A stretch of 64,000 nucleotides of DNA from Thermococcus camini (GTDB taxonomy: Archaea; Methanobacteriota_B; Thermococci; Thermococcales; Thermococcaceae). The DNA lies in the NCBI RefSeq assembly GCF_904067545.1, contig NZ_LR881183.1, positions 1,368,277 through 1,432,276 of the forward strand. Reading direction: 5' to 3'. Below, piece by piece: positions 29,469-50,959 of this stretch. The notes beneath the pieces were generated by a model that searched no databases, had not been told where the DNA came from, and saw nothing but the letters and a program-made list of their open reading frames with translations. Both the position numbers and the translations under genes were made by a program. Numbering within the stretch: the stretch's first letter is position 1; each line of letters opens with the position of its first letter.

Positions 29469-29576
29469 GCCGGGGTAGCTTAGCCTGGTCAGAGCGCTCG
29501 GCTCATAGGGCCGCTCCCCTTCGGGGGAGCCTGAGAAACCGAGAGGTCCGGGGTTCAAAGCCCCGCCCCGGCACCA
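29469..29576 (+). tRNA. tRNA-Met (CAT), elongator, with a 30-nt intron
   Basis: Acceptor GCCGGGG pairs with CCCCGGC at the 3' end, and CCA is encoded (29574-29576). The anticodon arm is CUCGG/CCGAG with loop C-U-CAU-A-A. A 30-base intron at 29508-29537, right after position 37, folds into a GC-rich hairpin around CTCCCCTTCGGGGGAG. That is the canonical archaeal intron site cut by the splicing endonuclease. The G1-C72 pair argues for elongator rather than initiator tRNA. Elongator tRNA-Met introns are known in Pyrococcus. Confidence 0.95.
29508..29537 (+). other. Intron of tRNA-Met
   Basis: Thirty bases between A37 and A38 of the tRNA, self-complementary over GCTCCCC and GGGGAGC. The boundary is ambiguous by one or two bases, because A residues flank the 3' splice point. 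Confidence 0.85.
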
Positions 29577-30052
29577 TTCAAACTTCGCCTTCACGAAGTT
29601 TGATCAAGTTCGTGATTCCCTTCTAATGCACTTCTCTGGGAGGGTTTGCCTCTTTGAGTGTGGTTTTTACTGAGGAATTCCTTTTGAAGTTGCTTTGTTT
29701 GAGTGGGTTTACCTTACCCGCGCTCCGTTGGAGCGCTTTAGGAGTTTAAACCCATGTTTCAGGGGCTCTGAGGGTGAATTCCTGCTTGAAAAGGATAGTC
29801 TGGCAATACAAACTCCCCCCAACTGCACTTTAAGGAAGAATCACAAACTTTGACGAAACTTTACGCAGGTAAAGTTTCTTTGGTGAAACTTTTAGAAAAA
29901 GCTTCAGCGCTGACAGGAGATCACGTGCTATTCTAAAAATATTTCAGATTTACTCCCTAAATACCGTTCCACAACGTTTTACTCTCCAGGGATTAACTGG
30001 GCACTGGGGAGTTGTGACCCTCAGACATTCGTAAAAATTGAAAAACGAGACG
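29577..30052 (+). repeat. tRNA-linked structured non-coding element, copy A
   Basis: There is no credible gene in these 476 bases. They begin two bases after the tRNA-Met CCA with a 9-bp hairpin CAAACTTCG/CGAAGTTTG (29579-29602). Then come a nested hairpin TGGGTTTA/TAAACCCA around GCGCTCC/GGAGCGC (29704-29754) and a 10-bp hairpin GAAACTTTAC/GTAAAGTTTC (29855-29878). Bases 29841-29912 match 50541-50612 at 64 of 72 positions without gaps. GTTTTACTCTCC near 29976 also recurs in the other copy. Probably one transcript with the tRNA; function unknown. Confidence 0.7.
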
Positions 30053-48540: not shown

Positions 48541-48612
48541 GCCCCCGGGAAACCGCGGGGGATGAGCGCCTCGGCGAGCGATGATTTCCCTTCGCTCCCC
48601 GGGGGCACACTC
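48541..48612 (+). ncRNA. Predicted H/ACA box guide RNA
   Basis: The 5' GCCCCCGGG (48541-48549) pairs perfectly with CCCGGGGGC (48598-48606). ACA follows at once (48607-48609), three bases from the expected 3' end. Between them lie unpaired segments that could form the guide pocket (AAACCGC and CTTCGCT), an upper stem, and two ATGA elements (GATGAGC and CGATGATT) suitable for a kink-turn bound by L7Ae. The length of about 72 nt is typical of single-hairpin archaeal H/ACA RNAs. Target uridine not identified. Confidence 0.6.
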
Positions 48613-48629: not shown

Positions 48630-49889
48630 TCACCACTTTCCTCGGGAGCCGTTGGTTCTCGAATAGCCTCCCGAGTAGTTTCTCCTCCCCCGTTTTCCGC
48701 CGTTACCGCGTCTTGGGTTCCGGGAGTAGCTCCTCTGGTTTTCCCTCTCATACCTCTCGCGGTACTCGCGTGGAATCTCCTCGCTCAGCTCGGACTTGCG
48801 TATCTCAACGCCCGCAGTCTGGGCGATGTAGCGGAGCCTCCTGAACTCGCCAGGCATTATGAAGGTCACCGCCCTTCCTTTCTTGCCCATCCTGCCAGTT
48901 CTGCCTATCCTGTGGACGTAGTCCTCGGCCGTCATTGGCAGGGAGTAGTTCACGACGTAGTTTATGTCCTGCACATCGAGGCCCCTGGCGGCGACGTCCG
49001 TCGCAACGAGAACCCTGGTTTTTTTGGTCTTGAAGCGCCAGAAGGTTCTCTCGCGCGCGGCCTGGCTCATATCCCCGTTTAAAGCCTCGGCGCTGTAGCC
49101 AGCCCTCCTGAGCTTCTCACTGAGCTCCCTGGTTTCCCTCTTGGTGGCGCAGAAGACTATGCCGTAGAAGTCCCCGGCGCCATCGAGTATCTTCCTGAGC
49201 ATCGTGAGCTTCCTCGCCGGGACGACCTCTATGTACTCCTGATCCACCATCTCAGGGACGAGCTCGTCGCTGCTGACGCTTACCACCTCGTAGTCACCCA
49301 TGTAGCGCCTCGCGAGCCTCTTTATCTCCAGTGGCATCGTGGCGGAGAACATCAGCACACGCTTCTTTCTCGGTGTCTCCCTGAAAATCGCCTCTATGTC
49401 GTCTATGAATCCCATGTCGAGCATCCTGTCGGCCTCATCGAGGATGAAGAACTTTACGGAGCTCAGGTCGAGGGTTCCGCGCCTTATGTGGTCGAGAACC
49501 CTTCCAGGGGTTCCGACTACAACATGGGTCCCCCGCTCAAGTGCCCTTATCTGAGGCCCTATCGGCTGGCCGCCGTAAACGGCGTAAACGTACACCCTCT
49601 TCCTCCCGCGGAGGCTCTTTATCTCGTCCGCGACCTGAAGGGCAAGCTCCCTCGTGGGCGTCAGTATTATCGCCTGAACCGCCTTCACCTTCGGATCGAT
49701 GGCCTCGATTATTGGAAGCGCAAAGGCGGCAGTCTTTCCCGTTCCGGTCTGGGACTGGCCGATTATATCGACGTCGCCCGATAGAAGGCGCGGGATTACC
49801 TCCCTCTGAATATCCGTCGGACTTGAGAAGCCCTTCTGCCTGACAGCCACTAACGTGGCCTCTGATAAGCCTAAGCTTTCAAAACTCAT
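48630..49889 (-). CDS. DEAD-box RNA helicase
   Basis: 419 residues with the full motif set: Q motif (FSSPTDIQREVIP), I QSQTGTGKT, Ia PTRELALQ, Ib TPGRVLDH, II LDEADRML, III FSATMP, IV FCATKRE, V ATDVAARGLDV and VI HRIGRTGRMG. The last 45 residues are Arg/Gly/Ser-rich (RRGNGGKRGRRNYSGGYSR), a likely RNA-binding tail. It unwinds RNA in ribosome assembly or cold response. Encoded just downstream of tRNA-Lys on the same strand. Confidence 0.95.
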   Translation of the reverse strand: MSFESLGLSEATLVAVRQKGFSSPTDIQREVIPRLLSGDVDIIGQSQTGTGKTAAFALPIIEAIDPKVKAVQAIILTPTRELALQVADEIKSLRGRKRVYVYAVYGGQPIGPQIRALERGTHVVVGTPGRVLDHIRRGTLDLSSVKFFILDEADRMLDMGFIDDIEAIFRETPRKKRVLMFSATMPLEIKRLARRYMGDYEVVSVSSDELVPEMVDQEYIEVVPARKLTMLRKILDGAGDFYGIVFCATKRETRELSEKLRRAGYSAEALNGDMSQAARERTFWRFKTKKTRVLVATDVAARGLDVQDINYVVNYSLPMTAEDYVHRIGRTGRMGKKGRAVTFIMPGEFRRLRYIAQTAGVEIRKSELSEEIPREYRERYERENQRSYSRNPRRGNGGKRGRRNYSGGYSRTNGSRGKW

Positions 49890-49958
49890 TTTTCTAACTC
49901 CTTACGTTACTCAAACGCATCCCTTCTCAAACGGAACGCGTCGAGAAGAAACGCGGTC

Positions 49959-50036
49959 TGGCGGGCCGGGGGGGATTCGAACCCCCGACCACGGGATTAA
50001 GAGTCCCGCGCTCTAACCATGCTGAGCTACCGGCCC
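49959..50036 (-). tRNA. tRNA-Lys (CTT)
   Basis: Read on the minus strand: acceptor GGGCCGG pairs with CCGGCCC, discriminator G, and CCA is encoded. The anticodon arm CGGGA-CTCTTAA-TCCCG gives anticodon CTT. T arm GGGGG-TTCGAAT-CCCCC. No intron. A TATA-like AATTTATAAAGC on the minus strand lies near 50064-50074. Divergent from tRNA-Leu. Confidence 0.95.
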
Positions 50037-50147: not shown

Positions 50148-50235
50148 GCGGGGGTTGCCAAGCCTGGTCAAAGGCGCGGGATTGAGGGTCCCGTCCCGTA
50201 GGGGTTCCGGGGTTCAAATCCCCGCCCCCGCACCA
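50148..50235 (+). tRNA. tRNA-Leu (GAG)
   Basis: Acceptor GCGGGGG pairs with CCCCCGC, discriminator A, CCA encoded at 50233-50235. Anticodon loop TTGAGGG between CGGGA and TCCCG gives GAG. The long variable arm (TCCCGTAGGGGTT region) is typical of class II tRNA. A TATA box ATTTATAAAG lies at about 50111-50120. A structured repeat begins two bases after CCA. Confidence 0.95.
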
Positions 50236-50959
50236 CACAAACTTCGCCTTCGCGACGTTGAAGCGAAGCTTCAACGCACGGGACGACAGTCCCGTTGAGT
50301 TTGATCAAGGTCGGTGATTCCTGTTTGAGTTGTCTTCTCGGGAGTGTTTGCCTTTCAAGCCAAGCTCTTTGGGTTGGAATTCCTTTTAATTGGGTAAGCG
50401 TGTTGAGGTTTACACTCTTCCGCACTCCTTCGGAGCGCTTTTAGAGTTAACCTCTTGTTTTGATGCCTTGGAGAGGGAATTTCCGATTAGGGGGCCGTTT
50501 GAGAGTGCAAACGTTCTCCAAGTTACATTTTTGAAAGGAATCACGAACTTTGACGAAACTTTTCTCCAGAAAAGTTTCTTTGGTGAAGCTTTTGGAAAAA
50601 GCTTCAGCGCTGGCGGAAATTGGGGTGCTTTTTGGAGATTGCAAGTTCTGAAGTGGGTTTCTCATTCACTTGCTCATCAGCGAGTGTTTCACTTTCCAAA
50701 GGCGCCCTTCGGGCGCCGATAAAAATATGAAAACCACCCCCTAAACAGGAACCCAAAATGGTTCTCACTTGAAACATCACCCTCAAGTCTGGAAACCACA
50801 TTTCCAGTTACAACATAGAGAAGAGCTACAAACTCCAGCGAAGCTTTCTAAGACAGAAAAATGATTGTCAGGTAAGTTGTTTCCAGGTTTTACTCTCCCA
50901 AGAACGCACAGGCCAAACATATTTAAACCTTCTGTGCGTAAAATCCATCGGTGACTTTG
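50236..50959 (+). repeat. tRNA-linked structured non-coding element, copy B, and its flank
   Basis: There is no credible gene in 724 bases. Elements: CAAACTTCG from 50238, two extra hairpins CGTTGAAGC/GCTTCAACG (50256-50276) and ACGGGAC/GTCCCGT (50278-50295), AGTTTG closing at 50298-50303, a nested hairpin GAGGTT/AACCTC with ACTCT/AGAGT (50405-50454), and a 10-bp hairpin GAAACTTTTC/GAAAAGTTTC (50555-50578). The part to about 50612 is homologous to copy A after tRNA-Met. Beyond it lie a GGCGCCC-TTC-GGGCGCC hairpin near 50700 and GTTTTACTCTCC near 50887, also found in copy A. Confidence 0.7.

Follow-up and report, generated by a model that had tools for sequence, protein, structure and literature searches.

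Palindromic, MITE-like repeats located behind tRNA genes in Thermococcus camini and other Thermococcaceae

The window analysed here, a stretch of 64,000 nucleotides from Thermococcus camini, carries two tRNA genes that are each followed, just past the encoded CCA, by a complete unit of a palindromic repeat, referred to below as copy A and copy B (Table 1). The tRNA gene in front of copy A contains an intron; its anticodon, read by eye, is CAU, which corresponds to Met, and the label given by ARAGORN with introns is Ser. In the neighbourhood of copy B, on the minus strand at 48630-50036, a DEAD-box RNA helicase gene is preceded just upstream by a tRNA-Lys gene; T. kodakarensis is reported to have the same order, with the tRNA located in the 5′-UTR of the helicase (PMC4247193). 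The spacer between tRNA-Lys and helicase is conserved in three further genomes (G002, G006 and G011), and the H/ACA RNA Pab160 (Rfam RF02796) at 48541-48609 neighbours the helicase gene.

Table 1. Features of the two repeat-bearing loci in the window (strand "." where none is assigned).
Feature	Position	Strand	Evidence
tRNA gene with intron; encoded CCA at 29574-29576	29469-29576	+	sequence, ARAGORN with introns
Copy A, complete unit (300-bp palindrome)	29579-29878	+	model R1 ends, unit pairing and length, fold
Copy A, left terminal hairpin CAAACTTCGCCTTCACGAAGTTTG, 2 nt past CCA	29579-29602	+	sequence, model R1
Copy A, central hairpin GCGCTCC-GTT-GGAGCGC, mid-unit	29720-29736	.	sequence
Copy A, right terminal hairpin GAAACTTTACGCAGGTAAAGTTTC, G-type; the hairpin of the preliminary description	29855-29878	+	model R1
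Extra hairpin GAAACTTTTAGAAAAAGCTTC adjoining the distal end of copy A	29885-29905	.	
Decayed fragment of the second repeat family (type II, AGCGCTGRC...)	29906-29990	+	similarity to type II ends
tRNA-Leu (GAG), host of copy B	50148-50235	+	ARAGORN
Copy B, second complete unit, 2 nt past CCA	50238-50578	+	
Copy B, compound left terminal hairpin	50238-50303	+	fold
Copy B, central hairpin	50422-50438	.	sequence
Copy B, right terminal hairpin, compensatory pair 50563/50570	50555-50578	+	
Extra hairpin GAAGCTTTTGGAAAAAGCTTC past copy B	50585-50605	.	sequence
Palindromic type II unit following copy B; right border approximate	50606-50880	+	sequence, type II ends

The segment 29577-29990 had been presented in the preliminary description as a single hairpin-rich element starting two bases behind the tRNA CCA and devoid of credible ORFs. 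Both statements hold, as the CCA and the first hairpin are two bases apart and no ORF of at least 60 aa is found inside the segment. Its extent, however, had to be redrawn: the element proper is copy A, and the remainder up to 29990 consists of a leftover hairpin and a type II fragment, identified by comparison with those type II ends that are flush with tRNAs in other genomes. The reported 72-base core (29841-29912) does match 50541-50612 at 64 of 72 positions without gaps, but it represents the right-hand terminal hairpin only, and the mirror-image left end beside the tRNA had been missed; in copy A this left, tRNA-facing end is of the C-type defined below. Copy B is built in the same way, with two small extra hairpins predicted by the fold to be nested inside its left terminal stem, and the type II unit behind it has a central hairpin of its own at 50701-50717. 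Compared with shuffled sequences, both the copy A segment (z = -5.2) and copy B (z = -9.3) fold more strongly.

In several units the terminal hairpin houses a mini-insert made up of two nested hairpins (GCGACGT..GCTCGACGCA and GGGACGACAGTCCC), so that the end is branched and T-shaped. Besides 50238-50303, it was observed in our genome at 316k, 502k, 782k and 203k (L083, L085, L089 and L096) and at one further locus (L109), and the same insert is found again in several species.

Copy A is a member of a family of non-coding palindromic repeats of about 300 bp that is present in most Thermococcaceae. The resemblance between copies is far from chance: a blastn search with the copy A segment returned 22 matches in its own genome, where R1, a covariance model of the conserved unit end comprising 44 positions, detected 41 ends at E<0.001. 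Across 94 Thermococcaceae genomes, the count of recognisable ends runs from 0 to about 42. Within the genus, R1 ends turned up in 58 of 61 genomes; four other genera have few copies (3/3, 7/13, 7/7 and 1/1 genomes positive), and no end was detected in the nine genomes of one further Thermococcaceae genus or in 24 genomes from outside the family. An exact-pattern scan over the genomes of 84,980 species, a collection that may omit records of or near our own genome, retrieved 57 stretches, every one from Thermococcus or Thermococcaceae. Plasmid and phage records yielded no unit matches, and two pattern matches in IMG/VR were set aside as probably due to chance, one of them lying in a phage coding ORF and neither contig carrying a tRNA.

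The 89 units whose ends could be paired are mostly 295-309 bp long, and the consensus of 70 units is an imperfect palindrome of 302 bp, which proceeds from a terminal hairpin through ATCAAAGTTNGTGATTC, an arm with GAATTC, and GGGTTT to the central GCGCTCCnnnGGAGCGC and then repeats this order in mirror image. Both ends carry a near-perfect hairpin, both arms contain the GAATTC block, and the GC central hairpin sits at 0.496 ± 0.033 of the unit length (n = 89 units). In being short, multicopy, non-coding and bounded by terminal inverted repeats, the units agree with miniature inverted-repeat transposable elements (MITEs). The family is apparently undescribed so far; our search of the open literature returned no description, and its novelty is provisional, as an older account may exist in subscription papers. 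A review of prokaryotic MITEs does not name Thermococcales or mention tRNA (PMC10969869), and neither repeats nor palindromes are mentioned in the main text of a transcriptome study of T. kodakarensis (PMC4247193).

Docking at tRNA genes was counted on 249 ends (E<1e-4) from our own and about 30 other genomes. One hundred of these ends begin 0-6 nt past a tRNA 3′ end, with a mode of 2-3, and the count was 73 of 186 after leaving out two genomes with deliberately chosen tRNA regions. At distances of up to 20 nt, a tRNA 3′ end is faced by 101 ends and a tRNA 5′ end by none; by chance, about 0.2 dockings at tRNA 3′ ends would be expected, even with the ends restricted to one tenth of the genome. 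Direct reading of the flanks gave 21 occupied tRNA genes out of 46 in our genome and 19 out of 44 in that of a sister species (G011), and 10 of 30 sampled ends were docked in the other four genera. Homologues away from tRNA genes and without pattern, which the preliminary description would have counted against its reading, do occur in part: about 60% of the ends are not at a tRNA, but many of these form the distal end of a docked unit or belong to arrays.

The docking is also polar. Ends are of two types, C-type (CAAACTT..AAGTTTG) and G-type (GAAACTT..AAGTTTC), and among 31 asymmetric units, which combine both types and have one of their ends at a tRNA, 26 turn the C-type end toward it (p=2e-4). 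C-type ends likewise make up 54 of 90 ends at tRNAs versus 17 of 110 elsewhere (p=6e-11), both p-values being optimistic because related loci are not independent.

Other gene ends are used as well. Units dock at the 3′ end of a sequence that has C/D-box-like motifs, read by eye, that ends in CTGAG and has no Rfam name; four Thermococcus genomes have a unit at this site, and one genome of another genus has it slightly displaced. The difference in position between the two genera suggests repeated independent docking. A few units adjoin protein stop codons, with three ORFs of >230 codons ending at the hairpin. Occurrences of a unit directly behind the C/D-box-like sequence (..GGTCACCACTGAG) were recorded at 1875062 in our genome (L101) and at four further loci (L104, L110, L111 and L370).

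Such a position recalls remnants of plasmids or viruses integrated in tRNA genes via tyrosine integrases, or derivatives of casposons, which also use tRNA gene ends. tRNA 3′ ends are indeed targets of archaeal integrases (PMC6972569), and SSV-type integrase elements, the pT26-2 and pTN3 families and casposons resemble our units in attaching there and leaving the tRNA intact. The units differ from all of these in lacking coding capacity and a duplicated tRNA end, and in docking by the ends of small-RNA and protein genes too. Past 100 docked ends no duplicated tRNA segment longer than 10 nt was found, the longest match of 10 nt being in the control range, in a comparison that can reveal a duplication of 2-4 nt only where a clean empty site exists. 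Together with the near-constant unit length and the plasmid and phage records devoid of matches, this makes an origin from integrases or casposons very improbable.

An equally slight chance is left for a palindrome derived from REP/RAYT or IS200/IS605 that a Y1 (HuH) transposase mobilises. In their polarity and their terminal DNA hairpins the units resemble IS200/IS605 ends, and like REP, BIME and REPIN sequences with their RAYT the units are extragenic, palindromic and arrayed, with covarying stems. However, they are about ten times the length of a REP, no fixed tetranucleotide tag adjoins the terminal hairpin, and the Y1 transposase domain PF01797 has no hit in our genome, is positive in 9 of 41 genomes of the genus and is lacking from most element-rich genomes. 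A candidate autonomous element of 0.9 kb was discarded, the three end-to-end spans checked being arrays of non-coding units; neither these spans nor the genome-wide search for the Y1 family yielded a transposase or recombinase linked to the units.

A further question was whether the hairpins are kept as RNA. The preliminary description had noted that the A-T pair 29863/29870 of copy A is a T-A pair (50563/50570) in copy B, and had taken it as a sign of selection on RNA structure. The exchange itself is confirmed, and compensatory changes occur in both terminal and central hairpins, several terminal-hairpin pairs covarying. Its interpretation is not supported, as the pair sits in a near-perfect Watson-Crick palindrome: in the terminal hairpins 1776 of 1800 cells (98.7%) are Watson-Crick paired, with 6 G.T and 8 A.C. 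For 47 docked units, the arm mismatches on the tRNA-sense strand comprise 381 G.U and 363 A.C (p=0.53). Since RNA selection should tolerate G.U and reject A.C, and a DNA palindrome maintained through recombination or the binding of proteins treats both alike, equal numbers are what is expected of a DNA palindrome decaying without RNA selection. Moreover, the arms of one unit pair with each other hardly better (0.653) than with those of other units (0.632), and therefore little co-evolution occurs inside a unit. Neither measure supports the reading as RNA under selection.

If the element were a structured RNA, selected for its fold, that shares a transcript with the tRNA and is cut free by tRNase Z, this would fit the start 0-6 nt past the CCA, the strong fold of both copies and the compensatory changes; a tRNA-snoRNA co-transcript has been reported in T. 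kodakarensis (PMC4247193). With tRNA-snoRNA precursors the units have in common the place directly 3′ of a tRNA. Unlike them, the units give no sign of selection at the RNA level, orthologous tRNAs differ in occupancy, and an Rfam search of the copy A segment matched no family; taken with the mismatch counts and arm pairing, these observations leave this explanation improbable.

We also consider it unlikely, if somewhat less so, that the repeat is a DNA or RNA signal useful to the host and kept by selection, such as a transcription stop, a 3′-end protector or a supercoil-absorbing DNA behind highly transcribed tRNAs. The location immediately behind tRNAs, in some cases behind a small RNA of C/D-like appearance and now and then flush with the stop codon of a protein gene, would agree with it, as would the fact that several unrelated palindromic families occupy the same position. 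Against it, the element is lacking from half of the tRNA genes, from 9/9 genomes of one genus and from some congeners. The uridine run needed for archaeal termination is not consistently present after the gene, so that an intrinsic terminator was rejected: the longest T run within 40 nt past the CCA is 2-4 with the element and 1-5 without. The transcription-stop role proposed earlier is weakened accordingly, and an essential benefit to the host is argued against by the roughly half occupancy, the absence in some species and the rapid exchange between species.

This exchange is seen when our genome is compared with that of the sister species, where the occupants differ at 9 of 41 well-matched orthologous tRNA pairs and, in several pairs with a unit in both species, the two are members of different subfamilies. 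The tRNA-Leu(CAA) locus has different units between the same tRNA and the same downstream DNA (92% identical), which in both species starts with the common leftover ...AAAAGCTTCAGCGCC, part of a hairpin of the extra type. Because this leftover is common to both species beyond two different units, the extra hairpins at 29885-29905 and 50585-50605 are probably scars of earlier occupants. Recent copying within a genome is suggested by the tRNA-Leu(CAA) unit, located outside the window in our genome, and copy B, which share 96.5% identity over 463 bp beginning at the first base of the tRNA, tRNA body included; a Val/Val tRNA pair in the sister species has the same near-identity pattern, and both cases would fit gene conversion through the tRNA sequence.

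Between the two genomes no clean pair of empty and filled sites with unchanged flanks was found, the candidates having rearranged flanks or another unit in place; the informative comparisons are exchanges of unit for unit, and movement is what this comparison of species points to. An apparent empty site at tRNA-Arg-TCT was rejected, as in our genome it seems to hold a different integrated element. The sequence downstream of tRNA-Arg at 1327816 (L054) is similar to one in another genome (G002, L134) and looks like an integrated element with a small antisense ORF; at the tRNA-Arg of the sister species (L136) there is a palindromic unit instead, whose far border coincides with the stop codon of an ORF interpreted as asnS.

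The docking point is shared with a second, unrelated palindromic family, type II, which has AAAGCGYTGRCGGAA beside its end hairpin. In one genome (G006), 22 exact type II matches were obtained with none in the control; 19 of the 22 are downstream of a tRNA, 18 of these 19 on the tRNA strand, and 8 are flush. Type II docks likewise, and therefore the docking point itself is special, not just the first family. Flush with tRNA 3′ ends we also observed a third repeat, which is GC-rich (ACGAAAGACAAGGGGGCTCCGCCCCC..., in many cases with CTGTACTCTCAAACCCCC..GTGGGG behind it), at 1685107 in our genome (L100), at three loci of G006 (L135, L141 and L155) and at tRNA-His of the sister species (L202); in G006 it is apparently inserted between the tRNA and type II units, which then lie at about 57 nt.

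The position of the units just behind tRNA genes and their swapping between species suggest a DNA-insertion process aimed at tRNA gene ends. We favour, with a probability of roughly two in three, the reading that the units are non-autonomous, MITE-like DNA elements that dock at the 3′ ends of tRNA genes and are exchanged by recombination. Among the roles offered in the preliminary description, that of a mobile non-coding element targeting tRNA ends is thus the one well supported, by the docking, the turnover between species and the bias to 3′ ends only. In a possible mechanism, a putative recombinase or transposase would recognise the terminal DNA hairpins and join the left end just downstream of a tRNA 3′ end, or occasionally of another small RNA or protein gene, and the host gene would stay intact. 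Units that arrive later may replace or push out earlier ones via recombination between similar ends, with the extra hairpin as a scar, and units may spread among isoacceptor tRNA genes via gene conversion through the tRNA sequence; an RNA product would not be needed. More tentatively, Thermococcaceae may possess a so far undescribed process of directional DNA docking, by which palindromic non-coding cassettes of at least two unrelated families are inserted and exchanged at the 3′ ends of stable RNA genes without duplicating the tRNA end, a broader view that we hold to be possible rather than probable.

As to kind, the repeat is a MITE-like palindromic repeat. Like MITEs (PMC10969869), the units are short, non-coding and multicopy, with inverted terminal repeats and no transposase of their own; unlike them, they come with neither an identifiable parent transposon nor a visible target-site duplication, they are palindromic throughout, with terminal and central hairpins, and they dock precisely and with polarity. 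The unusual part is this docking at the tRNA 3′ end. These observations also carry a warning, as compensatory changes within repeats are not in themselves proof of a structured RNA.

Archaeal integrases classically insert at tRNA 3′ ends and leave a duplicated tRNA end there. A small palindrome docked at nearly half of the tRNA genes of a genome, at a near-constant distance, in a preferred polarity and without such a duplication, points to gene ends being recognised in a different manner. As each genome has many sites and close relatives can be compared, the family offers a simple system for hunting the enzyme, and for asking how a hyperthermophile can maintain 300-bp palindromes in its DNA.
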